Origin: Bacillus sp. BA3
GTDB lineage: Bacteria; Bacillota; Bacilli; Bacillales; DSM-1321
Length of the DNA: 64,000 nt
Assembly (NCBI GenBank): GCA_002835675.1
Contig: PIZR01000002.1
Coordinates: forward strand, 62,001-126,000
Reading direction: 5' to 3'
This document shows positions 33,417 to 48,230 of this stretch, one piece after another. Made by a program: the position numbers and the translations under genes. The stretch's first letter is position 1. Every line of letters starts with the position of its first letter. The notes below the pieces were generated by a model. The model saw only the letters and a list, made by a program, of their open reading frames with translations. It ran no database searches and was not told the DNA's origin.

Positions 33417-34448
33417 TTAGTTCTGGAGCTTTTTATCAATAAGTTCATGAAAATAGACTGCAGCATGTTCAGTTGGAGAAAAGATACCATTTGTAAATGC
33501 CTCGGAACTTAATCCTTTTTGCAGTTTTTCCACCAGTTCAAAGTCTTCCTGCCGTACTTGATCAACAAATTTAAAATATTCTTCTTTTTCTATGGTTATT
33601 TTTTCATCGAGGGAGTAATCACGATAAATTCCTAACGACGTCACGGCATCAACAGGAATTACTTGGATGGTATTCACATTCCCGTCTCCTGGATAAACGT
33701 TAATCATCATATTTGGCCAGACCCAATAAAAACGCGCTTGATCACCTTCGCCATTCTTACTTGCTGTCATATATTGATAGGTGAATTTGTCGTGTGTCGT
33801 TGTGCAAAAGTTTGATATATCAAAGGATTTTGCAAAGCCAGGATGAGCAATGGAACAATGATCACATTCAAGGTAATTGTCAACAACGGCTTTCCAATTA
33901 GCTTTTACTACACGCCTAGTTTCCCTAACTAGTTTCAGTGAATCAAAGAAGGGATACTCTTTCATTTCCTCTAAAAATTCCTGATATGCTTCTGCCATAG
34001 AAGGTGCATTTTTATCTAGATTGACAAAAATCATAGCATTCTGAACTTCTAAGCGAATGGATTTCATACAACTGTGTATTCCCAGTTCATTCGTTTTAAA
34101 ATTGGGAGCTTTATGCACACTTCCATCTAATTTGAACGTCCATCCATGGTAACCGCATTGTAAAATTTTCTTATTTCCTTTATCGGAGTTTTCCACTTTC
34201 ATTCCGCGATGAGGGCAAATATTATAGAAAGCACGCAGTTCACCATCAGTACCGTGAGAAACGATAATAGGCTCTCCGGCGATGTCTATTGTCATGAAAT
34301 CGCCTACTTTTTCAACTTGGCTTGCATGACCAGCTAATATCCAACTCTTTCTAAAGATTTTTTTTCTTTCTTCATTGAATGCCTCTGGTTCGACATACCG
34401 TGAATAAGGGAGTGTAGGGCTGAACTGTACATTTTCTTTAATAGACAT
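33417..34448 (-). CDS. Rieske non-heme iron oxygenase, alpha subunit (quaternary-amine type)
   Basis: Oxygenase component of 343 residues. Rieske [2Fe-2S] ligands Cys78/His80 (CPHRG) and Cys98/His101 (CGYHGW); mononuclear iron His197 and His202 in DNYLECDHCSIAHPGF, with the third ligand in QEDFELVEKLQKGL; Glu194 sits at the bridging position. The C-terminal EHAAVYFHELI ending resembles carnitine, choline and glycine-betaine monooxygenases. These enzymes need a reductase, and none is encoded in the window. Last gene of the sigma-54 cluster, 60 bp after the aldehyde dehydrogenase gene. Hydroxylation or N-demethylation of the pathway substrate is inferred. Confidence 0.82.
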   Translation of the reverse strand: MSIKENVQFSPTLPYSRYVEPEAFNEERKKIFRKSWILAGHASQVEKVGDFMTIDIAGEPIIVSHGTDGELRAFYNICPHRGMKVENSDKGNKKILQCGYHGWTFKLDGSVHKAPNFKTNELGIHSCMKSIRLEVQNAMIFVNLDKNAPSMAEAYQEFLEEMKEYPFFDSLKLVRETRRVVKANWKAVVDNYLECDHCSIAHPGFAKSFDISNFCTTTHDKFTYQYMTASKNGEGDQARFYWVWPNMMINVYPGDGNVNTIQVIPVDAVTSLGIYRDYSLDEKITIEKEEYFKFVDQVRQEDFELVEKLQKGLSSEAFTNGIFSPTEHAAVYFHELIDKKLQN

Positions 34449-34508
34449 ATTGAAAATCCCTCCTGATTATCATCTAATTTAAAAGTTTAATGCATGGTAC
34501 CATTTTAG

Positions 34509-35951
34509 TTATACCCGATCCATATAGACTGTCTTGACCTCTGTATAGAATTCAACGGCACTCTTCCCTTGTTCACGGCTGCCTGCACTTGAATTTTTAC
34601 ATCCACCAAATGGCATTTGCGGTTCGGTTCCTGCTGTTTCCGAATTGACATGAACAAGACCCACCTCCACATCTTCAATAAACCGTTGAGCCAACGTTAA
34701 ATTGTTTGTACAAATTGCTGCGCTCAATCCATACTCTGTATCATTGGCCATCTTAACTGCTTCCTCATAATTTACGGCCTTAAAAAGGGCGATGACTGGT
34801 CCGAAGATTTCTTCACGTGCAATGCGGGCATGTTGTGGAACATTTTCAAAGATAGCCGGCCGGACATAAAAACCGTTCGCCAATTCCTCTTCTGCCGGAA
34901 TCTCCCCTCCACACAACAGCGTAGCTTCTGATTTCCCAACATCGATCATTTCAAGCACGCCATCACGTTGTGATCTAGAAACCGCGGGACCGATATATGT
35001 TTCTTCTTTGAGCGGGTCGCCCACTTTTAATTCTTTCGTACGCGCGATAAGCCGTTCCCGGAATACTTCATAAATTCCTTCTTCCACAATCACCCGGCTA
35101 GTGGCTGTGCATTTTTGCCCTGTGGATTTAAAAGCTCCGCCTATAGCTATTTCCACTGCTTTTTCAAGATCAGCATCGGCGAGGACGACAAGCGGGTTTT
35201 TCCCTCCCATTTCCGCTTGCACTTTCTTTCCATGCTCAATGGCTTGTTTTTGAATTTGCTGACCTACTTGATTCGAGCCGGTAAAAGATATGGCCTTCAC
35301 ATCCGGATGTTCCACTAAAGCAGCACCAATGACGGAGCCCCTTCCGAATACACAATTGATGACACCAGGTGGAAGACCCGCCTCATCGAAGGCTTTCATC
35401 ACATGGTAGACCGACTTAGGTGTAAAATCAGCCGGCTTAATCACGACTGTATTCCCGTAAATCAGGGCCGGCGCCAATTTCCATACAGGGATGGCGATAG
35501 GAAAGTTCCAGGGGGTAATCAACCCCACCGGACCTAGCGGGGTGCGAATAGTGTATAAAAATGTATTGGCATTTGCTGAAGGAATTACTTCCCCGATTGG
35601 CTGTCGGGCTTCAGCAGCATAATATTCAAGTATGCTGGCAGCACGATTGGCTTCCCCCATCCCTTCCAAGAATGTTTTTCCTTCTTCCTTTATCAAATCT
35701 TGACCTACTTCCTGAATATTCTTTTTCAAAATATCAGCTGCTTTCTGCAAGTATGAAGCCCGTTGCTGAAACGACAGATTTTTCCAGTCAGGAAATGAAT
35801 TTTTTGCTGCTGCCACTGCATCATGTAAATCAGCCGCAGCACTTGATGGAAATTCCCCTAAATTTTTTCCATTATGAGGACTAAGATTTTCCTTATACTC
35901 ACCTGTAGTGGGTTCTTCCCATTTTCCATTAATATAATTTAAGTAACGCAT
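34509..35951 (-). CDS. NAD(P)-dependent aldehyde dehydrogenase
   Basis: Soluble ALDH-superfamily enzyme of 480 residues oxidising an aldehyde to the acid. Visible motifs are TPWNFPIAIPVWKLAPAL, KPADFTP (cofactor lysine), FTGSNQVG, AEMGGKNPLVV with the general-base Glu, and GQKCTATSR with the nucleophile Cys. The sequence recalls alpha-ketoglutaric semialdehyde dehydrogenases (YcbD-like), but substrate cannot be fixed. GGAGG precedes the ATG. In the cluster it could oxidise the aldehyde made by the thiamine-dependent enzyme at 38811-40475. Confidence 0.88.
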   Translation of the reverse strand: MRYLNYINGKWEEPTTGEYKENLSPHNGKNLGEFPSSAAADLHDAVAAAKNSFPDWKNLSFQQRASYLQKAADILKKNIQEVGQDLIKEEGKTFLEGMGEANRAASILEYYAAEARQPIGEVIPSANANTFLYTIRTPLGPVGLITPWNFPIAIPVWKLAPALIYGNTVVIKPADFTPKSVYHVMKAFDEAGLPPGVINCVFGRGSVIGAALVEHPDVKAISFTGSNQVGQQIQKQAIEHGKKVQAEMGGKNPLVVLADADLEKAVEIAIGGAFKSTGQKCTATSRVIVEEGIYEVFRERLIARTKELKVGDPLKEETYIGPAVSRSQRDGVLEMIDVGKSEATLLCGGEIPAEEELANGFYVRPAIFENVPQHARIAREEIFGPVIALFKAVNYEEAVKMANDTEYGLSAAICTNNLTLAQRFIEDVEVGLVHVNSETAGTEPQMPFGGCKNSSAGSREQGKSAVEFYTEVKTVYMDRV

Positions 35952-36086
35952 ACGATTTCCTCCGTATTCTATTTTTCTACTTTTAAATAATAGGATTACT
36001 TATAACTGGTAACTTCTAAATGGATACTTCAACGACTCCTGCATACCCTAACGTTTTCTTTTGTCGGGCACATTAGGAATATTCTC

Positions 36087-37517
36087 CTATTGAACAAAAT
36101 CATTGGGCTGATCATTTGTTAAGGCTGGCACCTCCACTTTCCTTCTCGCATATCTAAAATAGTAAAAGATATAGCAAGCAATGACGAAACCTAATCCCCA
36201 ATACAACGAGGTTCGCTGTGTCGGATCATAAGCGGTGAACACGAAAATACCTAGACACATAATGATGCAGAGAATCGGGGCAAACGGGAAAAAAGGTACT
36301 CTGAACTTCAGATTTTCAACCTTTCCGCCTGCTCTGATATACTGCTTACGGAATTTGTATTGTGCGAACGCAATCGCCATCCAAGTAAGCACCCCTCCAA
36401 CCCCGCTTATGGAAAGTAGTACAACGAATAACGTTTCTTCCGCTACTACACTAGTAAGTAAGGACAGCAAGGCAAAGACCATGGTGACAAGTAAGGCGTT
36501 AAAAGGTACACCGCGCCGATTGAGCTTTCCAAATGCAGAATGCGCCATACCGTTTTGAGAAAGGGAGAAAAGGATCCTTGTACAAGCAAACAGACCCGTG
36601 TTTCCTACAGAGAGGACCGCCGTCAAAATTACGAAATTCATAATGTCAGCTGCATAAGGAATGCCTACCATTTCAAACACGGTAACAAATGGACTTTCCA
36701 GTACCCCAACTTCTTTCCAAGGAACGATGGCCGATAGAACAAAGATTGCCAGTACATAGAAAAGCAGCACACGTATTACGATATTTCTAATCGCTCTAGG
36801 AATGCTTTTTTGCGGGTTTTCCGTCTCTCCTGCTGCAACACCCATGATTTCCGATCCCTGGAAAGCATACACAACTGTCATCATCGATATAAACACACCC
36901 GTGAATCCTGTAGGGAATAGTCCATCTCCTATAAAATTGGAAAAGAACGGGGCAGGCTGTGCATCCTCCATATGAATCAATCCAAACATCGCTGCTGCAC
37001 CGATAATAATGAATAGAATGACGGCAAGTACTTTAATCCCGGAGAACCAATACTCTGTCTCAGCGAAACTTCTCGTTGTTAATGCATTTATAGTGAATAA
37101 AAGTACCGTAAATATCACACACCATATCCATACTGGTGTATTGGGAAACCATCTAGTCATGAGCAAACCGGCCGCTACAAATTCCAGGCCTACGTAAAGA
37201 GCCCAGCTCAGCCAGTAAATCCAGCCAATGACAAATCCAGTGGCGGGACCGATAAATTTCGTTGCATGAACCTGAAAGGATCCGGATACCGGCATCACTA
37301 CCGATAATTCACCGAGACAAATCATCGCCAAGTACATTAATAAACCACCAACCAAATAGGCAACAATCGCTCCTAAGGGTCCAGCTTCACCGATGGCATA
37401 TCCTGAGCCCAGGAAAAGACCTGTTCCAATTACCCCACCTAAGGAGAGCATGAATAAATGTCTGCTCTTCATTGAACGCTGTAATTCTTTTGGCTGATTT
37501 TCATGTTCTGTTTGCAT
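36087..37517 (-). CDS. Amino acid permease, RocE/AAT type (second)
   Basis: APC-superfamily importer of 476 residues with about 12 helices, closely similar in plan to the permease at 25-1440: LQRSMKSRHLFMLSLGGVIG, GETENPQKSIPRAIRN, YDPTQRTSLYWG. GGGGGGG precedes the ATG. Situated between the dehydrogenase and aldehyde dehydrogenase genes in the sigma-54 cluster, it likely imports the amino acid or betaine-like substrate of the pathway. Substrate is not readable from sequence. Confidence 0.85.
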   Translation of the reverse strand: MQTEHENQPKELQRSMKSRHLFMLSLGGVIGTGLFLGSGYAIGEAGPLGAIVAYLVGGLLMYLAMICLGELSVVMPVSGSFQVHATKFIGPATGFVIGWIYWLSWALYVGLEFVAAGLLMTRWFPNTPVWIWCVIFTVLLFTINALTTRSFAETEYWFSGIKVLAVILFIIIGAAAMFGLIHMEDAQPAPFFSNFIGDGLFPTGFTGVFISMMTVVYAFQGSEIMGVAAGETENPQKSIPRAIRNIVIRVLLFYVLAIFVLSAIVPWKEVGVLESPFVTVFEMVGIPYAADIMNFVILTAVLSVGNTGLFACTRILFSLSQNGMAHSAFGKLNRRGVPFNALLVTMVFALLSLLTSVVAEETLFVVLLSISGVGGVLTWMAIAFAQYKFRKQYIRAGGKVENLKFRVPFFPFAPILCIIMCLGIFVFTAYDPTQRTSLYWGLGFVIACYIFYYFRYARRKVEVPALTNDQPNDFVQ

Positions 37518-37586
37518 GATTTCCCCCCCGTTTCTGATCGATAATCAGCTTAAACACTTTTATGATTAACACAAGTTAACGAGAGT

Positions 37587-38756
37587 TCACGATAACGCTT
37601 CGGAAGGCACTGCATATTCTGGAAAGTCGCTGATTGTCGGTTTAAATATTTCATAGGCTACTTCTCTTTGATATTTTTTTTGTTTTTTAGCTTGTGTAAA
37701 TAAATGATACGTATTTTTCCTGCATAGTTTTTCTATATCATCAACGACAGCTTGTGGATTTGGTTTAACCAGTCCGAAAATAACCACATCATAAAATCTT
37801 ATCGCCCCAAGGTTGGCAACGAAATCATTGACAACATCTATTCCTCTCTGTTTTATGATTTCGTCTCCCTCTGAAGAAAGGGGAATGTTTGCCGCCTCAA
37901 CGATCAAGCTCGCTTTTACGCTTTTGGCATTGGATATGTGGATGACATCCTCCAATGCGGACGGAATTAAAATGTCGCAATCTATGTCGAGCCATTCCGT
38001 GTTTGACCTTACATCATAATGCGGTTCAAAAAAGGCCTTATCCATTTCCCCGTACATATTCTTATGATCAATAAGCTTTTGGACATCCAATCCTTCTTCA
38101 CACGTAACCAAAAGGGCTGCATCGGAAATTCCCACAACTTTGTATCCTAACTGGGACATTTTCAATGCGCAGCTTGCCCCTACACAGCCGAATCCTTGAA
38201 TGACAACTCTCGCTCCTCCTTTTCCGCTTTTAAATTTCCATGCCTCATCTGCGGAAAAAGCCACACCATAGCCTGTTACGACATCGTTTAAAAACAACCC
38301 GTCGATTTTTGTCGTCAACAATTCATCGAAGTCTTTTATCCCTTGCAGAACATCCGGATTCTGCTTCATTGATTTCGTTAACGGGATATCAATGCCAAAT
38401 TCATTAAATATTTTGAGCACATCTTCATACTTGGTACCTAAATCACTTCCTAATGATACCCCTATATCTATATAAGGCATCATCGCAATCAGAAATCTTC
38501 TTAACACTGCATATGCGTCTGACGCTTTATAATCATAGGCAATGCCCGCTTTACAACCGCCAGTCGTCTCAGACTCACAGGCTACATACTTATAAGCCAT
38601 AGCCTCGGCCAACCTCTCGACCTCTTCTCTTGTAACCGTTGGGTGCATTCTAGTACCGCCGCCTGTGTAACCTTTGACAAAGTTATGGACGACCAGCCAG
38701 CCTTTAGCATCTGTTTCCGTATCATTCCATTCCACAACTAAATATGGTTTTAACAA
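37587..38756 (-). CDS. Glu/Leu/Phe/Val dehydrogenase family amino acid dehydrogenase, divergent
   Basis: 389-residue NAD(P)-dependent amino acid dehydrogenase. TTG start behind GGGAGG. The N-terminal domain has YTGGGTRMHP, closer to the GGTRM of leucine/phenylalanine dehydrogenases than to the KGGIR of glutamate dehydrogenase. Both active-site lysines appear retained (AMAYKYVACE, TTGGCKAGI), as does GSDLGT for the catalytic Asp. The Rossmann motif is GFGCVGAS. It is distant from the RocG-like protein at 9262-10539. In the cluster it could deaminate an imported amino acid to a 2-oxo acid. Confidence 0.75.
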   Translation of the reverse strand: MLKPYLVVEWNDTETDAKGWLVVHNFVKGYTGGGTRMHPTVTREEVERLAEAMAYKYVACESETTGGCKAGIAYDYKASDAYAVLRRFLIAMMPYIDIGVSLGSDLGTKYEDVLKIFNEFGIDIPLTKSMKQNPDVLQGIKDFDELLTTKIDGLFLNDVVTGYGVAFSADEAWKFKSGKGGARVVIQGFGCVGASCALKMSQLGYKVVGISDAALLVTCEEGLDVQKLIDHKNMYGEMDKAFFEPHYDVRSNTEWLDIDCDILIPSALEDVIHISNAKSVKASLIVEAANIPLSSEGDEIIKQRGIDVVNDFVANLGAIRFYDVVIFGLVKPNPQAVVDDIEKLCRKNTYHLFTQAKKQKKYQREVAYEIFKPTISDFPEYAVPSEALS

Positions 38757-38810
38757 CTATGAAACCTCCCTAAATATCTTCTTTTTATTGGTTCCTGCTA
38801 ACTTCCAATG

Positions 38811-40475
38811 TTAATTGTTCGACATTAGCTTTTCGTGGACTTCCTTCTTGTCTTGGCCTACAGATTGAATCTTTGGATTGACTGCAACTTCGATTACAGC
38901 AGGCAGCCCTGAAGCAATCGCCCTTTGCAACGCTGGCGCAAAATCACTATTTTTTTCAACCTTTTCACCATGTGCTCCAAATAAACGCGCCAATTCAGCA
39001 AAATCAGGATTAGACAAGTCAGTTCCAACGACCCGATTTGGAAAATGCCTTTCTTGATGTACACGAATTGTTCCGTAAATATTGTTGTTCACAACAATTG
39101 ATATAGTCGGAATTTTATACCGTACAGCGGTTTCAATCTCTTGGAGAGTCATCATAAAGCCGCCGTCTCCTGAAATAGAAACAACATGTTTGTGAGGCTG
39201 CGCCAGCTTTGCCCCAATAGCAGCAGGCAGTCCATATCCCATCGCACCCGAAGTTGGCCCCACGTATGTGTTTTCTTGTTCAAAACGATAATATCTGGAT
39301 AGCCATCCAAAAAAGTTTCCTGCATCATTTGTAATGATCGTATCCTTCGGCAGACCGACGGCAAGATCATGCATCAATCCGTCCATATCCACGAAATCTT
39401 CTGTATAGTCGGCCTTCAGTTCAGAAAATTTCATATATTTATCGTGCAATTCCTTCAAATGATCCTCGCTTGAAATAAAAGTTTCTGATTCTGGCGTTAG
39501 CAGTGCTTGTTCCAAGAAGCTCTTGGCGTCTGCTTCAATGGCAAGGGAAGGAGCATACACTTTACCAAAAATTTCTGGACAAATATCCACATGGATCAGT
39601 TTAGTATTTTTAGAAAGCAAGGTGTAATCTTGGGTTCCTACTTGAGAGAATCGTGTCCCTAATGCCAAAACTACATCTGCGTCACGGATTGCATCAAGTA
39701 AATATTGAGGTGTCCCAAACCCAAGCCATCCTGCATAGCTAGGGTGTGAGTTAGGAAACGCGTCAAATCGACGGAAAGCTGTAACGACAGGAAGTTTCAT
39801 TGTCTCTACAAATTGTACAAGCAGCCTGTTGGCCTTAGCGTGAATCACACCTCCGCCTGCAATCAATACGGGGCGCTCCGCGTTTCGTATCGTATCCATC
39901 GCCCGCTTCACATCTTCCATATGTGGTTGAGGAGGACGCGGGCGATAAGATGGATTAATGTTCAACTCTGCCTCATCTTCTAACATGTCATGCGGTAAAG
40001 CCACTAATACAGGGCCCGGCCGACCCGATCGCGCAATATGGAAAGCCCGCTGCAATAATTCCGGGATTCTTTCCACACGATCGATCTCTACCGTCCATTT
40101 ACATAAATGACTGAAAAAACCCGTCAAATTCACTTCCTGAAATGCTTCCTTCTCTTTAAAAGGGCGTTCGACTTGGCCAATAAGCGCGACCAAAGGGGTT
40201 GAATCTTGAGCAGCAGTATGAATGCCGATAGCTAAGTTTGTAGCCCCCACTCCACGCGTTGCCATACAAACTCCTACCTCCCCTGAAGCCTTGGCATAAC
40301 CTTCCGCCATAAAAGAGGCACCGCCTTCATGCCTGGCGGAAATAAGTTCTATTTCAGGATGTTGATATAGTGCATCCATTACACTAAGATAACTTTCACC
40401 TGGTACACAAAAAGCTTTTTTCACCCCTTCTATAGCCATTACTTCTACGACTGCTCTTCCTCCACTGACTTTCAT
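38811..40475 (-). CDS. Thiamine-diphosphate enzyme, acetolactate synthase/2-oxo acid decarboxylase superfamily
   Basis: 554 residues from the ATG at 40475 with GGGAGG upstream; a longer in-frame ORF would overlap the previous gene. Three domains: Pyr (RHEGGASFMAEGYAKA with the activating Glu), central (RPVLIAGGGVIHAKA) and PP (ISGDGGFMMTLQEIETAV with NNNIYG, the ThDP motif). The family includes acetolactate synthase, glyoxylate carboligase and 2-oxo acid decarboxylases. No small regulatory subunit gene is nearby, so an anabolic acetolactate synthase role is unlikely. Decarboxylation of a 2-oxo acid to an aldehyde fits the neighbours. Confidence 0.82.
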   Translation of the reverse strand: MKVSGGRAVVEVMAIEGVKKAFCVPGESYLSVMDALYQHPEIELISARHEGGASFMAEGYAKASGEVGVCMATRGVGATNLAIGIHTAAQDSTPLVALIGQVERPFKEKEAFQEVNLTGFFSHLCKWTVEIDRVERIPELLQRAFHIARSGRPGPVLVALPHDMLEDEAELNINPSYRPRPPQPHMEDVKRAMDTIRNAERPVLIAGGGVIHAKANRLLVQFVETMKLPVVTAFRRFDAFPNSHPSYAGWLGFGTPQYLLDAIRDADVVLALGTRFSQVGTQDYTLLSKNTKLIHVDICPEIFGKVYAPSLAIEADAKSFLEQALLTPESETFISSEDHLKELHDKYMKFSELKADYTEDFVDMDGLMHDLAVGLPKDTIITNDAGNFFGWLSRYYRFEQENTYVGPTSGAMGYGLPAAIGAKLAQPHKHVVSISGDGGFMMTLQEIETAVRYKIPTISIVVNNNIYGTIRVHQERHFPNRVVGTDLSNPDFAELARLFGAHGEKVEKNSDFAPALQRAIASGLPAVIEVAVNPKIQSVGQDKKEVHEKLMSNN

Positions 40476-40554
40476 AATCAAGCCTCCCGCTTTCAAGTAC
40501 GTGTTTTTGTTCTCGTAATTTATGATTATATTAATATTGAACTCATTCCCACTA

Positions 40555-41253
40555 TCATTTAATAAGTTTTTCCATACTGGAAACTTGTTTTTTCTCTTCC
40601 ATCCGAATTGAAGTTTTTCCAGTAACGGCACTCACTCCCAAAGTTACTGCAATGTTGATGAATAATACAGCTAACCCCACATCAAGATCTTGTATTCCTT
40701 GCGGTAGAGATGGAAATAAAGTAGCAAGCGTCGTACCTGAAGTAGTCGAGTATATGACAATTAGGATTCCAACGATCATTCCGGCAAAAGCTCCTTGAAC
40801 GGTAACCGGATTCTTTTTCCACAGACTGAAAAATAGTGCTGGAAACAACTGTGCCATGAAGCTATATGCCATAAGATATAACGTAAAAATCGACTCCCCG
40901 CCATTGAACGTAAAATATAGAGTCACTATAGAAATGACAGGTACTAACATCCTGCTCAGTCTTTGAAGCTGCTCATCTGATGTATTCGGCTTCCACACCT
41001 TATATACATTTTTTGAAAGGATCGTGGCCGTAGCCGTCAACACGAGTGAACTGGGTATAAGGGCGGCCATCGCCCCTGATGCTCCAATAACTCCGACAAA
41101 CCAGGGATCAAATGACATCTTCGCCATTTTAAATAAAGCTAAGTCTGCTTCCGCTCCCTGTAAATTCGGAACTTGGAGAATCGCAGAAAAACCAATAAAT
41201 AACGAAAAAATGATGATTACTTGATAAATTGGCATAATCATCCTTATCAACAA
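40555..41253 (-). pseudogene. Sodium:solute symporter, 5'-truncated remnant
   Basis: 232 residues corresponding to the C-terminal half of SSF-family symporters, which are usually about 480-500 residues. It enters at RMIMPIYQVIIIFSLFIGFSA, normally mid-protein, then runs through FDPWFVGVIGASGAMAALIPSSL to a normal C-terminus. The frame is closed by TAG just upstream, there is no ribosome site, and only about 60 bp separate it from the previous gene, so the N-terminal half is gone. It is flanked by intact cluster genes, so the deletion seems local. It is probably non-functional as a transporter. Confidence 0.8.
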
Positions 41254-41316
41254 ATGCTAAACTCGAATCTTCCATACCTTTTTTATCAGAAAAAACAGAT
41301 AATTATCACTGTATTA

Positions 41317-42291
41317 TTACATTGACACCCCTTTAGTTAAGGGCTCATTTACAGCCCAGTTCGGTTTTACGCCAGTAAGAACTTGTTCCACCTGCATTGC
41401 TGCATGTACAGCCATGCGTACGGAACCTTCCTTCGTCAATGCCGCATTATGAGGACTGACAATCACATTATCCAATTTAAAAAGGGGATTCCATTTATCA
41501 GGAGGTTCAACTTCAAATACGTCTATTCCAGCTCCGGCAATCTCGCCTGCTTGCAAAGCGTTTACTAAATCAATTTCCTTCACCACTCCGCCCCTGGAAG
41601 CGTTTACAAAAAAGGAAGAAGGTTTCATCCAGGAAAACTCACGGCTTCCTATTATTCCTTTTGTTGTTTTCGTTAACGGCAGATGTAGACTAATAACATC
41701 AGAGTTTCTGAATACCCGTTCTAAATCTGTTGCTATCTCCAGCTCTGAATTCGGGCTGGCTGTAACATAAGGGTCGTAGCCAATTACTTTCATATCGAAG
41801 CCTTCGGAAGCCTTTTTTACCAGTATTCTACCGATTCTCCCTAGTCCGATAATCCCCAAAGTCTTGCCTTCCAAGTCCATGCCAAAAAGTTGATTACGGA
41901 TAGCAAAATTCCCGCTGCGCAGCTCTTTATCAGCCAAGCTTAAGTTTTTGGACAATGATAAAATTAATGCCATTACATGTTCAGCTACAGAATTCGCATT
42001 AGCCTCTGGGGTATTTGTTACATATATGCCACGTTCTGTAGCGGCTTCGATATCGATATTGTCCAAGCCCACTCCATACTTAGCTATTACTTTGAGGTTT
42101 TCAGCTGCTGTAATAACTTCTCTATTTATTACAGCCGTTGATCTCGTTAATACTGCATCACAACCCTTGATTTCTTCCATAAGAATTTCTTGCGACAAAT
42201 CAGACCCTACTTTAATCTTAAAGCCTTTTTCTACTAAATAACTTTTCCCCTCTTTCTCAATATCTTGAGGAATATACACTAAATGACTCAC
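41317..42291 (-). CDS. D-2-hydroxyacid dehydrogenase (phosphoglycerate dehydrogenase-like)
   Basis: 324-residue NAD-dependent D-isomer 2-hydroxyacid dehydrogenase. Visible are the substrate Arg region VIAKYGVGLDNIDIEAAT, the Rossmann motif GLGRIGRILVKK, NASRGGVVKE with the catalytic Arg, DVFEVEPP (Glu) and VSPHNAALT (His). It lacks the C-terminal ACT extension of long SerA proteins. GTG start. First gene downstream of the sigma-54 promoter, so it heads the cluster. Interconversion of a 2-hydroxy acid with the 2-oxo acid intermediate is the natural guess. Confidence 0.85.
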   Translation of the reverse strand: MSHLVYIPQDIEKEGKSYLVEKGFKIKVGSDLSQEILMEEIKGCDAVLTRSTAVINREVITAAENLKVIAKYGVGLDNIDIEAATERGIYVTNTPEANANSVAEHVMALILSLSKNLSLADKELRSGNFAIRNQLFGMDLEGKTLGIIGLGRIGRILVKKASEGFDMKVIGYDPYVTASPNSELEIATDLERVFRNSDVISLHLPLTKTTKGIIGSREFSWMKPSSFFVNASRGGVVKEIDLVNALQAGEIAGAGIDVFEVEPPDKWNPLFKLDNVIVSPHNAALTKEGSVRMAVHAAMQVEQVLTGVKPNWAVNEPLTKGVSM

Positions 42292-42352
42292 ATTCCCACC
42301 AACCTTTCATGTTAACCTTGAAGGAAAAACCTTTCCTACTACATTGTTTATA

Positions 42353-42369
42353 TACAATTATTGTGCCAA
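42353..42369 (-). promoter_or_regulatory. Sigma-54 promoter of the Rieske/decarboxylase cluster
   Basis: Minus strand TTGGCAC-AATAA-TTGTA: TGGCAC (42363-42368), 5-bp spacer, TTGTA (42353-42357). One deviation from consensus. It lies 62 bp before the hydroxyacid dehydrogenase start and directly downstream of the enhancer-binding regulator gene. Confidence 0.85.
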
Positions 42370-42440
42370 CATAAAAAACATCCGTTTATTCAAGAAAGAA
42401 GCCAATTAGTCCTCAAATTAAGAGATAAATAAAGTAAACA

Positions 42441-42490
42441 ATTTGTTTCATAATGAATTAATTTGTTTCAATACGTTTCAATTTATTTCA
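42441..42490. promoter_or_regulatory. Phased GTTTCA repeats, probable activator binding site
   Basis: GTTTCA at 42445, 42465 and 42475 plus ATTTCA at 42485. The steps of 20, 10 and 10 bp place all copies on one face of the helix. An AAACAATTTGTTT near-palindrome overlaps the first. They lie 75-120 bp upstream of the sigma-54 promoter and run into the 3' end of the regulator gene. Confidence 0.6.
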
Positions 42491-44412
42491 ATCTTCAAGC
42501 TTTTCATCTTTCTCCATAATGTCGTGCGACTCATGCCTAACTCAAAGGCGGCTTTTCCTTTATTAAAATTAACCTTCGTTAACGTTTGAACAATTCTTTC
42601 ACGCTCGGATAAATGTATTCCGGGTGACATATCGCTCTCTCCGTCTTGTTGCGACAGCGGTATTTTCTTTTTAACTCTATTCGGAAAATACATTTCGATA
42701 TCGTACACATCAATTAATTTGTTCTTATAAAGAGCACATAATCGCTCACAAAAATTTTGCAATTGGCGAATATTCCCCTCCCAATTCCCTTCACTTAGCT
42801 TTTTCATGGCACTATCCGTGATCTTGATTTGTTTTTGTTCCGAATGACCTTTCCGAATAAAGGCATTCACCAATAACGGAATATCTTCTCTGCGTTCCCG
42901 AAGCGGAGGCAATACAAGGTCCAGCACACTCAAGCGATAATACAGATCCTCCCGAAAGTCATTACTTTTTACCATTTGCATGAGGTCTTTGTTCGTTGCA
43001 GACACAATTCTCACATCAACCGGAATTACTTTATCATCACCGATGCGCATGATTTCCCGCTCCTGCAGGACACGTAGCAGCCGGCTTTGCATTTTTGGGG
43101 AGATTTCTCCGATTTCATCTAAAAAAATCGTACCTCTATGGGCCAGTTCAAAAAATCCTTGCTTTCCGCCTTTCATGGCTCCCGTGAAAGCTCCTTCTGC
43201 ATATCCGAAAAGCTCACTTTCCAATAGATTTTCGGGAAGGGCTGCGCAATTAATGGCTACAAACGGGTTATTTTTACGGTTGCTATGATTATGTATGCTT
43301 TGGGCGAATATTTCCTTGCCCGTTCCAGTTTCTCCAATTATAAGAATGTTTGAATCTACTTCACTATAACGTTGAGCCGTTTCAATCGTCCTCTTGATTT
43401 CCGAACTCCGATACAATATATCATCAAATGTGTACTTCGCCACATGTCCGCGTGAATGAAGCTTTCTAAAGAACTTCCCTTCCATCTCCTGAATGCGGGT
43501 AACATCTTGAAAGGCGACCATATCCCCCACTTTTTTACCTTTTAAAAATATCCCGACTTTTTTTACCGATAATTGAATGGATTGGTAAGCAACCGTATCT
43601 TTTTCGTATTCATCATCGCTTAAAAGCATATTACGAAATTTCCCGGGCTTTATTATATCGTATATGGAATTTCCAATTAAGCTCCCCTTGGCAATGGACA
43701 AAATCTCCTGAGCCGCCGTATTAAATACGGATATTTGTCCCTTTAAATCTATAGCAATAACCCCTTCATAGGCATAATTAAGAATCGTTTGGTAACGCTT
43801 GGTCTTCTCCTGTTCCCTTCTGCTGACAAGAGCTACTCGTTTCGCCTCAATCAACGCCTGCCGAAATGATTCCTTTCCAGTATCAACCAGAATGGCTCCC
43901 AACCCTATTTCTTCGGCATATTTACATGTACTTAAACCACTTAACACAACCTCACAGCCATCTCTGGCTGCTAAATCCACTAAACTGACTGAGGACTCGA
44001 TATCATTTAATATATAGGATTGAATTGGCAAATCAACGATATCCGAAAGGTTTTCAACACCATAAATCATATTTAACGCACCTATGACAGCCACTTTTTT
44101 ACTGCCAAAACGAGCCTTGCAATCATACAGGGAACGAATGAGATCGATACCCTGCACTGGTATATCAACGATTGGAATGAATTCATTGCTTTCTTTTAAA
44201 AGTTTCGTGATTAACCCCCTTGAGATGATTACATCAGCATCAAGCTTCAGCTTTCCAATCTTATCGGCATCCTCAACTACCTCCTCTAATACAAACTTCA
44301 CCGATCCGTTATCATTGTTTTCCGATGCTTCCAACTTGTTGAATTCCTCAAATCTTTCAAAGGCGTCCGTAATATACCCTTTTCGAGGAACAACTAGTTT
44401 TATTTTTATCAA
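42478..44412 (-). CDS. Sigma-54-dependent enhancer-binding regulator, PrpR-N type
   Basis: Activator of sigma-54 RNA polymerase, 644 residues from a TTG at 44412 preceded by GGAGGT; an upstream in-frame ATG lacks a ribosome site. The N-terminal ~190 residues resemble the PrpR sensory domain (VISRGLITKLLKE). A PAS-like segment follows (AIDLKGQISVFNTAAQEIL). The AAA+ domain has Walker A GETGTGKE, GAFTGA loop and FLDEIGEI. The C-terminal Fis-type HTH contains KGKAAFELGMSRTTLWRKMK. It is upstream of and co-directional with the cluster it very likely activates. The inducer may be a small organic acid or CoA-related ligand, but this is unknown. Confidence 0.9.
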   Translation of the reverse strand: MIKIKLVVPRKGYITDAFERFEEFNKLEASENNDNGSVKFVLEEVVEDADKIGKLKLDADVIISRGLITKLLKESNEFIPIVDIPVQGIDLIRSLYDCKARFGSKKVAVIGALNMIYGVENLSDIVDLPIQSYILNDIESSVSLVDLAARDGCEVVLSGLSTCKYAEEIGLGAILVDTGKESFRQALIEAKRVALVSRREQEKTKRYQTILNYAYEGVIAIDLKGQISVFNTAAQEILSIAKGSLIGNSIYDIIKPGKFRNMLLSDDEYEKDTVAYQSIQLSVKKVGIFLKGKKVGDMVAFQDVTRIQEMEGKFFRKLHSRGHVAKYTFDDILYRSSEIKRTIETAQRYSEVDSNILIIGETGTGKEIFAQSIHNHSNRKNNPFVAINCAALPENLLESELFGYAEGAFTGAMKGGKQGFFELAHRGTIFLDEIGEISPKMQSRLLRVLQEREIMRIGDDKVIPVDVRIVSATNKDLMQMVKSNDFREDLYYRLSVLDLVLPPLRERREDIPLLVNAFIRKGHSEQKQIKITDSAMKKLSEGNWEGNIRQLQNFCERLCALYKNKLIDVYDIEMYFPNRVKKKIPLSQQDGESDMSPGIHLSERERIVQTLTKVNFNKGKAAFELGMSRTTLWRKMKSLKIEIN

Positions 44413-45583: not shown

Positions 45584-46831
45584 TCATTCCCGGATTTGCC
45601 CCTGGCCGTATATGAAGTACTTGCTTGATGTTAAGGCCGGTAACCCCATTGGTCCACGTGCATGCAGCTTTTGTGTGGAAATGCCGATTTCTGCGCCATA
45701 ACCGAATTCAAAGCCGTCGGTAAAACGGGTGGAAGCATTGTGATAAACTGCTGCGGCATCTACTTTATTCAAAAATGCGTAAGCATTTTGTTCATCCCTC
45801 GTTAGGATTGCTTCAGAATGCTTGGAACCGTATCGGTTTATGTGATCAATGGCATCGGATACACCTTTTACAGTTTTCACGCTGAGTTTTAAAGCCAGGT
45901 ACTCAGTTGACCAATCTTCCTCCGTAGCCGTTTTCGCTCTCGGAAAGGAGCTGCAAACCGCTTCATCTCCATATAATTCAATACCCTTTTCGTCCAGGAG
46001 TTCCAGAATACGCACTCCATTTTCTTTAAACCATTCTTCATGGATTAGAAGCCCCTCAATAGCATTGCATACGGATGGGCGCTGAGTTTTACCGTTTAAG
46101 ACAATTTTCTCGACCATCGTGATATCTGCGGTCTGATCGATGAAGATATGGCAATTGCCTGCACCTGTTTCAAGGACGGGAACAGTGGACTCCTTAATGA
46201 CCGTTTCAATTAAATTCTTTCCGCCGCGGGGAATCAGAACATCTAAATACTCATTAAGATGAAAAAGTTCCTTAGCGGTTTCACGACTTGTATCCTCGAT
46301 CAACTGAACAGCTTCTACAGGGATTTCCGTATTCTCCAATGCTTTATGAATGGAAGAGACTAGTGCCATATTGGAGTATTTGGCTGAAGAGCTGCCTCTT
46401 AAGATGACAGCATTCCCCGTTTTCAAGGATAATGTAGCTGCATCGATGGTCACGTTAGGCCTTGCTTCATAAATCATTCCGATTACCCCGATCGGCACCC
46501 GTTGCTTTTTAATCAATAAACCATTCTCTTTTTTGATCGTCTCCAATCGTTCCCCAATCGGATCATTTAAATCGATTAAAAGCATAATGGCCGCTGCCAT
46601 GTCATCAATACGGTTAACATTCAACATAATTCGATCTAATATAGACTCGCTGAGACCTTTTTTCCTGCCATCTTCCAGATCCTTTTGGTTTTCCTTTATC
46701 AAAAAATCTTTATCGATAATAAGTTGTTTAGCAATTTTTCCAAGTGCCTCATTCTTCTTTTCCGTACTCAAACCGATTAGCTGATAACTGGCTTTTTGGG
46801 CTGCTTTTCCTTTCGCCGTCACTTCACTCAT
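45584..46831 (-). CDS. proA: Gamma-glutamyl phosphate reductase ProA
   Basis: Second enzyme of proline synthesis: reduces glutamyl 5-phosphate to glutamate 5-semialdehyde with NADPH. 415 residues from the ATG at 46831, which follows GGGGG; the longer in-frame ORF would overlap proB. ALDH-superfamily fold with [40 protein letters not shown] (catalytic Cys) and [13 protein letters not shown] at the C-terminus. It lies 35 bp after proB in a T-box-controlled operon. Confidence 0.95.
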
Positions 46832-46866
46832 TTCTAAATTCCCCCTTTTTTCTTGAAATTTATTTT

Positions 46867-47955
46867 TTAGGCTTTCACCCATTTATCGCGATGGATGACT
46901 TCTATGGAAGTGATTATAAGCTCGGATGTCCTCTTTCCCATCGCCTGTTTTAATTCTTCGTCGGAATAAAGGACCTCACCCCGCCCTAATAACCCATTTG
47001 CACCAAAGACTTCGACAACATCACCCTTATTGAAGACTCCTTTAATTTCATAAATTCCAGCTGGCAGCAGACTGCTGCCATTTGAAACTAAGGCCCTTTC
47101 GGCACCTTCATCAACGAAAATTTTCCCGGATACTTTTGAATGAAGTGATATCCATTGTTTGTTTTTCGTTACCGTCGTCAAGAGCTCATTCCCAATATAC
47201 GTGCCATCACCATTGCCTTCAAGGATTGTTAGAAGTTTATCACTCCCCAAACCAGAACCGATGAATACTTTCACCCCTAGAGACAATGCAGTTTGCGCTG
47301 CAATCAGCTTCGATTTCATCCCACCGGTTCCGACATTGGAACCTGCACCTTCTGCCATTTGCAATAAATCATCCGTTATTTCGGATAGCTTATCAAATCG
47401 TTTAGCCCCTGGATTTGTCTGTGGATTGGAATCATAAAGCCCATTAATGTCCGTTAATATGATCAAGTTGGACGCGTGGACCAGGCCGCTTACTAAGGCG
47501 GATAGCATATCATTATCACCAAAAGTCAACTCCTCGACCGATACTGTATCATTTTCATTTATGATCGGAAGGATGCCGCGTTCAAGCAATTCCATCAATG
47601 TGGCATATGCATTTTTATATCTATCTTTTTTCGAGAAATCTTTCCTTGTTAATAAAATCTGCGCCGGAACGATTCCAAAATGCCCCAATTGTTCCATATA
47701 CGATTGAATCAATAGGCTTTGACCTACAGCTGCAGCAGCTTGTTTTCCTTTGAGAGTGACAGGTCTCGTCGGGTAGCCAAGCTTGCGAAAACCTGTCGCT
47801 ACAGCACCTGATGAAACAAGGACAACTTCATGTCCGGCTTTCCTTAAAGCTGCCACTGCCTGGATATGATCGGAAAATTTATTCTGGTCGATTTCACCTT
47901 GTGTGTTGGTCAAAGAACTACTTCCTATCTTTACAACGATGCGTTTCTTTTCCAT
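46867..47955 (-). CDS. proB: Glutamate 5-kinase ProB
   Basis: First enzyme of proline synthesis, phosphorylating glutamate on the gamma carboxyl. 362 residues: an amino acid kinase domain ([57 protein letters not shown]) and a C-terminal PUA domain from about residue 275. Feedback inhibition by proline is known for the family. First gene of proBA; the leader upstream holds a proline-specific T-box, so expression should rise when tRNA-Pro is uncharged. Confidence 0.95.
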
Positions 47956-47983: not shown

Positions 47984-48230
47984 ACATGAAAAAAAGCCCT
48001 TTTCATCCTCGAAATAAGGACGAAAAGGGCTGCTCTCCGTGGTACCACCTTCATTGAATGCAAATTCATGCATTCCACTTTGCCTGATAACGCCAGGATT
48101 TGCGCCTATGTTTTGCATAGGACTCAAGAAGCAGGTTCTGCGCATTCCTGTCGCGGGCCTTCCAGCAATTGACGCCGCTCTCTGTCACAGTGATTCTCGC
48201 ATACTAATCTTCTCTCAACGTTCATTGTTT
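47984..48230 (-). ncRNA. T-box riboswitch, proline-specific, in the proBA leader
   Basis: The minus strand contains the T-box sequence AAGGTGGTACCACG (48038-48051), the tRNA-acceptor-binding hallmark. A terminator follows at once: stem AGCCCTTTTC(G)TCCT / AGGATGAAAAGGGCT (47995-48031) with T7. Upstream, stem I shows AGTATGCGAGAA near its base and GAA-CCT-GC in the specifier position; CCT (48133-48135) is a proline codon. T-box control of proBA is known in Bacillus subtilis. Uncharged tRNA-Pro should pair with CCT and the T-box to form the antiterminator. Confidence 0.92.

Follow-up and report, generated by a model that had tools for sequence, protein, structure and literature searches.

Described systems closest to the locus

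In the L-carnitine pathway of A. baumannii, CntA/CntB is accompanied by a malic semialdehyde dehydrogenase, a decarboxylating D-malate dehydrogenase and a carnitine transporter, the beta-decarboxylating D-malate dehydrogenase being the final enzyme (PMC11353897). Microbial formation of delta-valerobetaine has been attributed to DavB and DavA, a route that starts with a monooxygenase (PMC8976029, PMC11773067). The locus described here lies in Bacillus sp. BA3 (assembly GCA_002835675.1), in a stretch of 64,000 nucleotides of contig PIZR01000002.1 (positions 62,001 to 126,000) that was analysed as a whole, is called the window, and provides the numbering used below. It consists of a PrpR_N-type sigma-54 activator followed by seven minus-strand genes, from about 44415 down to 33417 according to open reading frame (ORF) calls and profile searches, and is moderately likely to be an inducible catabolic operon that converts N6-trimethyllysine (TML) via delta-valerobetaine to trimethylamine and glutarate. 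The Rieske enzyme of the window shares the group Va residues of CntA, and, as in the CntA pathway, cleavage of a C–N bond is proposed to give trimethylamine and a semialdehyde that is oxidised by an aldehyde dehydrogenase (ALDH). In contrast to that pathway, the proposed substrate has five carbons and would be made inside the cell from an amino acid, the end would be glutarate rather than malate, separate ferredoxin and reductase genes stand in place of CntB, and the promoter is of the sigma-54 type.

DavB/DavA has the same proposed start, TML, and the same product, delta-valerobetaine, as the window cluster, but there DavB, a monooxygenase, attacks the amino acid itself and is paired with the amidohydrolase DavA, whereas the window encodes a dehydrogenase, a decarboxylase and an ALDH, and the variant of anaerobes discussed below a ferredoxin oxidoreductase and an acyl-CoA synthetase (PMC8976029, PMC11773067). 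The bbu pathway of Emergencia timonensis for gamma-butyrobetaine is likewise an instance of trimethylammonium metabolism in a gut bacterium and includes a betaine/carnitine/choline transporter; it differs in using flavin-dependent elimination from a CoA ester, and the available text names neither a Rieske enzyme nor an amino acid dehydrogenase (PMC8364193). The proposed pathway would end with the same two enzymes as the glutarate route of E. coli, GlaH (CsiD) and L-2-hydroxyglutarate oxidase. That route is fed by 5-aminovalerate, whereas the feed proposed here is the cleavage of delta-valerobetaine. No gene cluster of this kind was among the matches listed in open-licence literature (titles and starts of abstracts); a preliminary description of the locus knew of no characterised pathway with this exact gene set. 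The reaction types are known singly; what appears new is the way they are combined, together with the assigned substrate and the counterpart in anaerobes.

Gene content and proposed pathway

The preliminary description had listed the regulator and the seven genes from the sequence; all were found where it had placed them as full minus-strand ORFs, and every family was confirmed by profile searches. Substrate, reactions and inducer are proposed from these gene families, the operon order, the conserved promoter, the Rieske subgroup residues and the glutarate genes of the same genome. TML and delta-valerobetaine fit best, judged from genome context and active-site residues.

TML would be imported by the APC-family amino acid permease (36087..37517, minus strand), whose best NCBIfam match is S-methylmethionine permease (553 bits, below the cut-off of 716). 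The divergent Glu/Leu/Phe/Val-type dehydrogenase (37587..38756, minus strand), recognised by family match and residue alignment and reaching the cut-off of no NCBIfam model, would remove the alpha-amino group to give 2-oxo-6-(trimethylammonio)hexanoate. Decarboxylation of this compound to 5-(trimethylammonio)pentanal is assigned, tentatively, to the thiamine diphosphate (ThDP) enzyme (38811..40475, minus strand), a member of the PRK08199 family (719.6 bits, cut-off 539) that most likely starts at the ATG at 40475. An aldehyde dehydrogenase, possibly the ALDH of the cluster (34509..35951, minus strand), would oxidise the aldehyde to delta-valerobetaine, whose C–N bond would be cleaved by the CntA-type, group Va Rieske monooxygenase (33417..34448, minus strand) to yield trimethylamine and glutarate semialdehyde. 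Its electrons would come from two proteins whose genes lie outside the cluster, a ferredoxin and an enzyme of the ferredoxin-NADP reductase type. The cluster ALDH, in which the motifs EMGGKNP and GQKC are present and whose best match is alpha-ketoglutaric semialdehyde dehydrogenase (657 bits, below the cut-off of 770), would convert glutarate semialdehyde to glutarate. From there, unlinked GlaH and L-2-hydroxyglutarate oxidase would lead to 2-oxoglutarate, or an unlinked CoA-transferase and glutaryl-CoA dehydrogenase type enzyme to crotonyl-CoA.

The dehydrogenase and its decarboxylating partners

The dehydrogenase was sought with six peptide patterns in one genome for each of 84,980 species, so that all counts are lower bounds. 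It was found at 58 loci, 51 of them with at least 48% identity; the counts over 51 loci leave out L071-L077 (28-30% identity). In named strains of Peribacillus simplex and P. frigoritolerans the dehydrogenase is 94-98% identical to that of the window, and one strain has a second copy at 84%; a Peribacillus is accordingly the most likely host of the cluster. A decarboxylating module lies close to the dehydrogenase in 47 of the 51 loci, the exceptions being L026, L040, L049 and L053, and it is of three kinds: a first ThDP family at 10 loci, a second ThDP family at 19 and, at the other 18, a ferredoxin oxidoreductase combined with an ADP-forming acyl-CoA synthetase. The two ThDP families are 26-28% alike and both occur in bacilli; the second is PRK07064 (610 bits, cut-off 495) and is usually accompanied by a BADH-like ALDH (592 bits in the representative L030, below the cut-off of 669). 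Because different enzymes fill the same place, these three modules are good evidence that the dehydrogenase yields a 2-oxo acid, which would then be oxidatively decarboxylated. The backbone envisaged in the preliminary description (uptake, oxidative deamination, decarboxylation and oxidation to an acid) thus gains support from the 47 loci, and its sigma-54 control from the activator domains and the conserved promoter.

Taurine or sulfonate metabolism was considered in view of the presence of the dehydrogenase in Desulforhopalus singaporensis, and was rejected, the second ThDP family being PRK07064 and not sulfoacetaldehyde acetyltransferase. M20 hydrolases recur near the dehydrogenase (L029, L034, L035, L044-L047, L049, L055-L057, L061, L064, L066 and L070), in bacilli and in anaerobes (two were scanned), and could release the amino acid from an acylated form. 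Hippurate and ectoine, suggested by these hydrolases, were discarded, as no other gene of those pathways was seen in the loci. The set-aside loci L071-L077, mostly from metagenome-assembled genomes of Bacteroidota, form a distant branch with different neighbours, and the two aligned rows, L071 and L074, have the common start EWNDTETDAKGW.

The window dehydrogenase was compared, residue by residue, with four paralogues from its own genome that resemble glutamate dehydrogenase. The residues that we take to be the catalytic lysines and aspartate are kept, whereas glycine replaces the lysine that presumably holds the side-chain carboxylate (PTKGGIR), and the region of its presumed partner serine is gapped; the lysine and serine that mark glutamate dehydrogenases were thus not found. 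A glutamate or 2-aminoadipate substrate is unlikely for this reason. This bears on a reading in which plain 2-aminoadipate or lysine is degraded to glutarate and the Rieske enzyme is an unrelated passenger. A dehydrogenase, a decarboxylase and an ALDH are precisely what it would take to turn 2-aminoadipate, via 2-oxoadipate and glutarate semialdehyde, into glutarate, and glutarate genes are linked in 11 of the 51 loci, but besides the dehydrogenase residues, the Rieske co-occurrence is too tight for a passenger, and a second, BADH-like ALDH and betaine transporters would be left unexplained. The 2-oxo acid of unmethylated lysine, moreover, cyclises and is hence a poor decarboxylase substrate. 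On balance this reading is unlikely.

The co-occurrence was observed in a sample of 397 genomes of the order, drawn from a larger group. The dehydrogenase is present in 12 of these, and a Rieske enzyme of at least 54% identity lies within 10 kb of it in nine, on another contig in one and is absent in two. The Rieske enzyme therefore occurs in 10 of 12 genomes with the dehydrogenase versus 3 of 385 without it (Fisher p 8e-16, ignoring kinship). Across the wider collection, at least one quaternary-amine gene stands at 33 of the 51 dehydrogenase loci: a Rieske gene in 23, many of them from closely related bacilli, and in the others BCCT, Opu-type betaine ABC or MttB-family methyltransferase genes.

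The Rieske monooxygenase

The best solved match of the Rieske enzyme is CntA (6y8j; E 4.6e-64, residues 10-320), the next one having E 3.7e-32 over residues 12-210. The Rieske ligands and the 2-His-1-carboxylate site, aligned to CntA, are Cys78, His80, Cys98, His101, His197, His202 and Asp302, and are kept in all 38 rows of related proteins. Further correspondences are Tyr192, the pi-cation residue, to Tyr203 of CntA, the bridging Glu194 to Glu205, Cys195 to Cys206, Cys198 to Cys209 and Tyr275 to Tyr295. The Cys-x-x-Cys pair beside the iron (Cys195/Cys198) is present in 38 of 38 related rows, and so is an aromatic residue at CntA position 203 (34 Tyr, 4 Phe). Tyr or Phe at this position has been described as the mark of group Va, which holds the carnitine, choline and benzalkonium oxygenases, and Asn as that of the demethylating group Vb (PMC7948474); the cysteine pair has been noted in some group V members (PMC10952381), and these CntA residues have been tied to quaternary ammonium substrates (PMC7948474, PMC10952381). 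Because the aromatic residue and the cysteine pair are both present, the Rieske enzyme should act on a trimethylammonium compound and, by analogy with CntA, should release trimethylamine. The preliminary description had it acting on a methylated or ring-bearing compound and named no substrate; the methylated alternative stands, narrowed to a trimethylammonium acid, and the ring-bearing one falls with the CntA-type residues. Glycine betaine demethylation was also dismissed: GbcA is the best NCBIfam match (157 bits, cut-off 670) but belongs to group Vb, and the window enzyme has the Va residue.

That description had also entertained a broader scheme, in which a branched or aromatic amino acid would be degraded and the Rieske enzyme would hydroxylate a ring or remove N-methyl groups. 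The tyrosine at CntA position 203 places the enzyme in Va and not in the demethylating Vb, and CntA is far ahead of the aromatic-ring oxygenases among the solved matches. The window enzymes do belong to Glu/Leu/Phe/Val-type dehydrogenase and ThDP families, superfamilies to which dehydrogenases of leucine and phenylalanine and decarboxylases of 2-oxo acids also belong, but we know of no branched or aromatic amino acid that would fit the glutarate genes, and the idea is very improbable.

Another possibility is that the front enzymes use a different amino acid resembling lysine, either N-methylated or cationic, such as monomethyl- or dimethyllysine, hydroxylated TML or another betainised six-carbon amino acid, again with glutarate as the end. 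A CntA-type Rieske enzyme and a glutarate end point fit such a substrate equally well, and context cannot separate methylation states. The BCCT and Opu-type transporters and the pi-cation residue nevertheless favour a full trimethylammonium group, and CntA has been reported to refuse the dimethyl, monomethyl and free amine analogues of its substrate (PMC7948474), so that this variant is considered rather unlikely.

Since CntA is the closest solved structure, degradation of carnitine or gamma-butyrobetaine was weighed as well. Separate clusters fitting carnitine were found in the genus (L096) and in the order (L097), with a divergent sigma-54-type activator, a Rieske enzyme 45-47% identical to that of the window, an ALDH and a BCCT gene. 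Each includes a gene over the cut-off for tartrate dehydrogenase (TIGR02089; 498 and 499 bits, cut-off 470), a family that we take to be linked to D-malate dehydrogenase. These clusters fit the carnitine route of PMC11353897, and in our reading the window and L096/L097 clusters are parallel designs for a five-carbon and a four-carbon betaine, respectively. Nor would a four-carbon substrate need an alpha-amino acid dehydrogenase or glutarate genes, which makes a carnitine or gamma-butyrobetaine assignment for the window cluster very unlikely. In a Rieske tree, of which only unrooted groupings were used because a single long outgroup row distorted the midpoint root, the 15 window-type rows form one group (100/100) that is separate from the carnitine-like pair.

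Glutarate genes and Rieske neighbourhoods

Among the 11 dehydrogenase loci with nearby glutarate genes, variant clusters from Neobacillus and others carry GlaH (five loci) and L-2-hydroxyglutarate oxidase (six loci); the L030 copies reach 431 bits (cut-off 333) and 603 bits (cut-off 299), respectively. Loci of Pseudalkalibacillus and Gottfriedia have a CoA-transferase and an acyl-CoA dehydrogenase. In L024, the former has succinate-glutarate CoA-transferase as its best model (464 bits, below the cut-off of 750), and the latter matches acryloyl-CoA reductase (405 bits, cut-off 640) and glutaryl-CoA dehydrogenase (387 bits, cut-off 470). The variant clusters have both BADH-like and KGSDH-like ALDHs, which would fit two aldehydes.

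The Rieske enzyme also occurs apart from the dehydrogenase. The clearest example of a link to glutarate is L099 (G077), whose genome has no dehydrogenase at E 1e-80; within 11 kb this locus has a KGSDH-like ALDH, BCCT, Rieske, a CoA-transferase, a GcdH type enzyme, L-2-hydroxyglutarate oxidase, DUF3870 and GlaH. Both L-2-hydroxyglutarate oxidase and GlaH exceed their cut-offs, and the stretch contains no ThDP enzyme; the Rieske product would here go to glutarate. The Rieske relatives L100, L101 and L105, which lack an adjacent dehydrogenase, adjoin BCCT, as does the copy in G021 (L113), and the Rieske substrate is for this reason probably a betaine that can itself be imported. In G006, one side of the activator carries a reductase, ferredoxin, Rieske, ThDP, M20 and ALDH genes and, beyond them, the dehydrogenase, a permease, a symporter and a KGSDH-like ALDH (L035), while GlaH and DUF3870 lie on the opposite flank, past a transposase gene of the IS240 type (L111).

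The window genome has its own glutarate genes. Contig 41 carries GlaH (433 bits) and L-2-hydroxyglutarate oxidase (602 bits), both over their cut-offs, with DUF3870; contig 24 carries a CoA-transferase (457 bits, below the cut-off), an acyl-CoA dehydrogenase (acryloyl-CoA reductase 378 bits, glutaryl-CoA dehydrogenase 374 bits, both below the cut-off) and DUF3870. Within the genus, all 12 genomes with a full Rieske gene (at least 90% identity) also carry GlaH, versus 7 of 23 without such a gene (Fisher p 6e-5, ignoring kinship). Among the 12 is G008, whose GlaH is split into two pieces, and among the seven G014, whose GlaH has internal stops; G004, with only a Rieske fragment, was set aside although it carries GlaH. 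That fragment, of 224 codons, lies at positions 7923-8597 of L106 with the same genes on either side, which looks like what is left after loss of the cluster.

DUF3870 (PF12986, about 112 amino acids) stands beside both glutarate routes (L092, L093, L099, L030 and L111) and may be part of glutarate metabolism. A FadH/OYE-family flavoenzyme lies in or beside the cluster in some bacilli (L029, L030, L051 and L104); its best model in L030 is mycofactocin-system oxidoreductase 2 (625 bits, below the cut-off of 793), and it possibly acts on the released methylamine.

Electron supply

The preliminary description had noted the lack of a Rieske reductase gene nearby. None was found in the cluster, including a CntB-type flavin mononucleotide (FMN)/[2Fe-2S] reductase gene, and a candidate pair of 4Fe-4S ferredoxin (60%) and reductase (75%) was located on contig 1 at 476432-477889. 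Several relatives have a gene of the pyridine nucleotide-disulphide reductase type beside the Rieske gene, in many cases together with a 4Fe-4S ferredoxin. Three further ferredoxins (56-57%) and a second reductase at 75% are present in the window genome and could also be the partners.

Observations that weigh against the proposed pathway

Several observations count against the TML pathway and limit its strength. As group Va includes choline monooxygenases too, C–N cleavage is proposed only by analogy with CntA. CntA itself is described as inactive on longer chains (PMC7948474), so that the window enzyme must differ from it. Two substitutions in the pocket, Phe258 to Ala and Tyr315 to Val, would fit a longer substrate; they are compatible with one but not diagnostic, since carnitine-like Rieske paralogues also have small residues at the 258/315 pocket positions, and the pocket residues were accordingly given up as evidence for chain length. 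Apart from the window-type rows, the dehydrogenase-linked rows do not cluster together in the Rieske tree: the row of L049, a dehydrogenase-linked one, joins the carnitine-like pair (100/100, long branch). The row of L099, which is 61% identical to the window enzyme and 50-51% to the carnitine-like pair, also joins the carnitine-like side (83/78).

Gene content raises further difficulties. No glutarate gene was found near 40 of the 51 dehydrogenase loci, the matches for CoA-transferase and the GcdH type remain below their cut-offs, and the GcdH type scores slightly better on acryloyl-CoA reductase. The window operon itself contains neither glutarate genes nor a reductase of its own, and has a single ALDH for two proposed aldehydes; one enzyme would have to serve both or share the work with another. 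The hydroxyacid dehydrogenase, the M20 hydrolases, the OYE-type flavoenzyme and DUF3870 have no place in the proposed pathway, and 10 of the 18 ferredoxin oxidoreductase loci lack a quaternary-amine gene. All counts are given without adjustment for kinship.

Probable sigma-54 control

The regulator is a sigma-54-dependent activator (42478..~44415, minus strand, start codon uncertain) with a PrpR_N sensor, PAS, AAA+ and Fis-type helix-turn-helix domains. Its earlier assignment as a PrpR-N-type sigma-54 activator was borne out by matches to both domains (PrpR_N 107.7 bits, Sigma54_activat 236.3 bits). The near-consensus -24/-12 promoter reported with it, TGGCAC-N5-TTGTA (TGGCACAATAATTGTA; 42353..42368, minus strand), likewise held up, with a score of 17 out of a maximum of 19 on a consensus whose weights were set by the authors. 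As background, 3000 random 190-base pieces were drawn from the window, and 0.9% of them score at least 17. In all eight window-type relatives the corresponding intergenic region reaches 17-19. The 13 variant clusters examined that have a divergent, shorter activator all possess a site facing the operon with a score of 18-19, in regions of 199-380 bases that are longer than the 190-base background pieces. All 21 relatives examined thus have an equivalent promoter.

The motif GAAACA-N3-TGTT (42435..42449, minus strand) lies some 80 bases upstream of the promoter and is kept at the matching distance in eight of eight window-type relatives; the GAAACA/TGTT pattern with a spacer of 2-6 has three occurrences in the window on both strands. 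It is a putative binding site of the activator.

A possible anaerobic counterpart

The 18 loci at which a 2-oxoacid:ferredoxin oxidoreductase and an ADP-forming acyl-CoA synthetase accompany a dehydrogenase of 48-65% identity come from mostly anaerobic bacteria: Lachnospiraceae including Blautia, Desulfovibrio-type bacteria and others. The two enzyme types were assigned by Pfam on L062 and by similarity at the other loci. This module could be an oxygen-free, ATP-yielding equivalent ending at delta-valerobetaine. A quaternary-amine gene accompanies 8 of the 18 (five BCCT, two Opu type, one of these by permease similarity only, and one MttB family), which supports but does not prove that the substrate there is the same. 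A wider idea is offered tentatively, with less confidence than the window pathway: the dehydrogenase family may mark TML users among aerobes and anaerobes alike, soil bacilli mineralising TML and gut Lachnospiraceae and Desulfovibrio-type bacteria fermenting it to delta-valerobetaine with a gain of ATP.

Delta-valerobetaine, also known as TMAVA, is described as microbiome-dependent and has been linked to obesity, fatty liver, heart failure and lowered carnitine (PMC8976029, PMC11773067, PMC9441744). If the idea is true, the gut would have an oxygen-independent source of this host-active compound, in a setting where a DavB-type monooxygenase is hard to run. According to a review, cultures of Lactobacilli, E. 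coli and Bifidobacterium longum convert trimethyllysine (PMC9441744), and several TML routes may exist for this reason. The window cluster provides a testable gene set for aerobic degradation of trimethyllysine and delta-valerobetaine, and the 18 loci a candidate gene set for oxygen-free delta-valerobetaine formation in gut Lachnospiraceae. Two further predictions of the proposal concern a substrate new to CntA-type Rieske enzymes and the function of a dehydrogenase for which no NCBIfam cut-off is reached.

Other genes of the cluster and its surroundings

A D-2-hydroxyacid dehydrogenase family protein (41317..42291, minus strand; ORF and family matches) lies between the activator and the other genes in eight of eight window-type loci. 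It is followed by the C-terminal part of a sodium:solute symporter (40555..41253, minus strand; 232 amino acids, family match). The gene had been called truncated, and its front is indeed deleted, about 1.0 kb being absent near 41238 relative to Peribacillus simplex L020. Among the eight window-type relatives, five keep 491-498 codons, L069 has 419, and L021 and L026 have no such gene; because of these two the symporter looks dispensable. In another genome of the same species (L114) it has 505 codons, cut at the locus edge.

Outside the cluster, a T-box leader was detected at 48013-48227 on the minus strand (Rfam RF00230, 93.5 bits, threshold 93), directly upstream of two genes (46867-47955 and 45584-46882) that resemble proB and proA as read from their translations.

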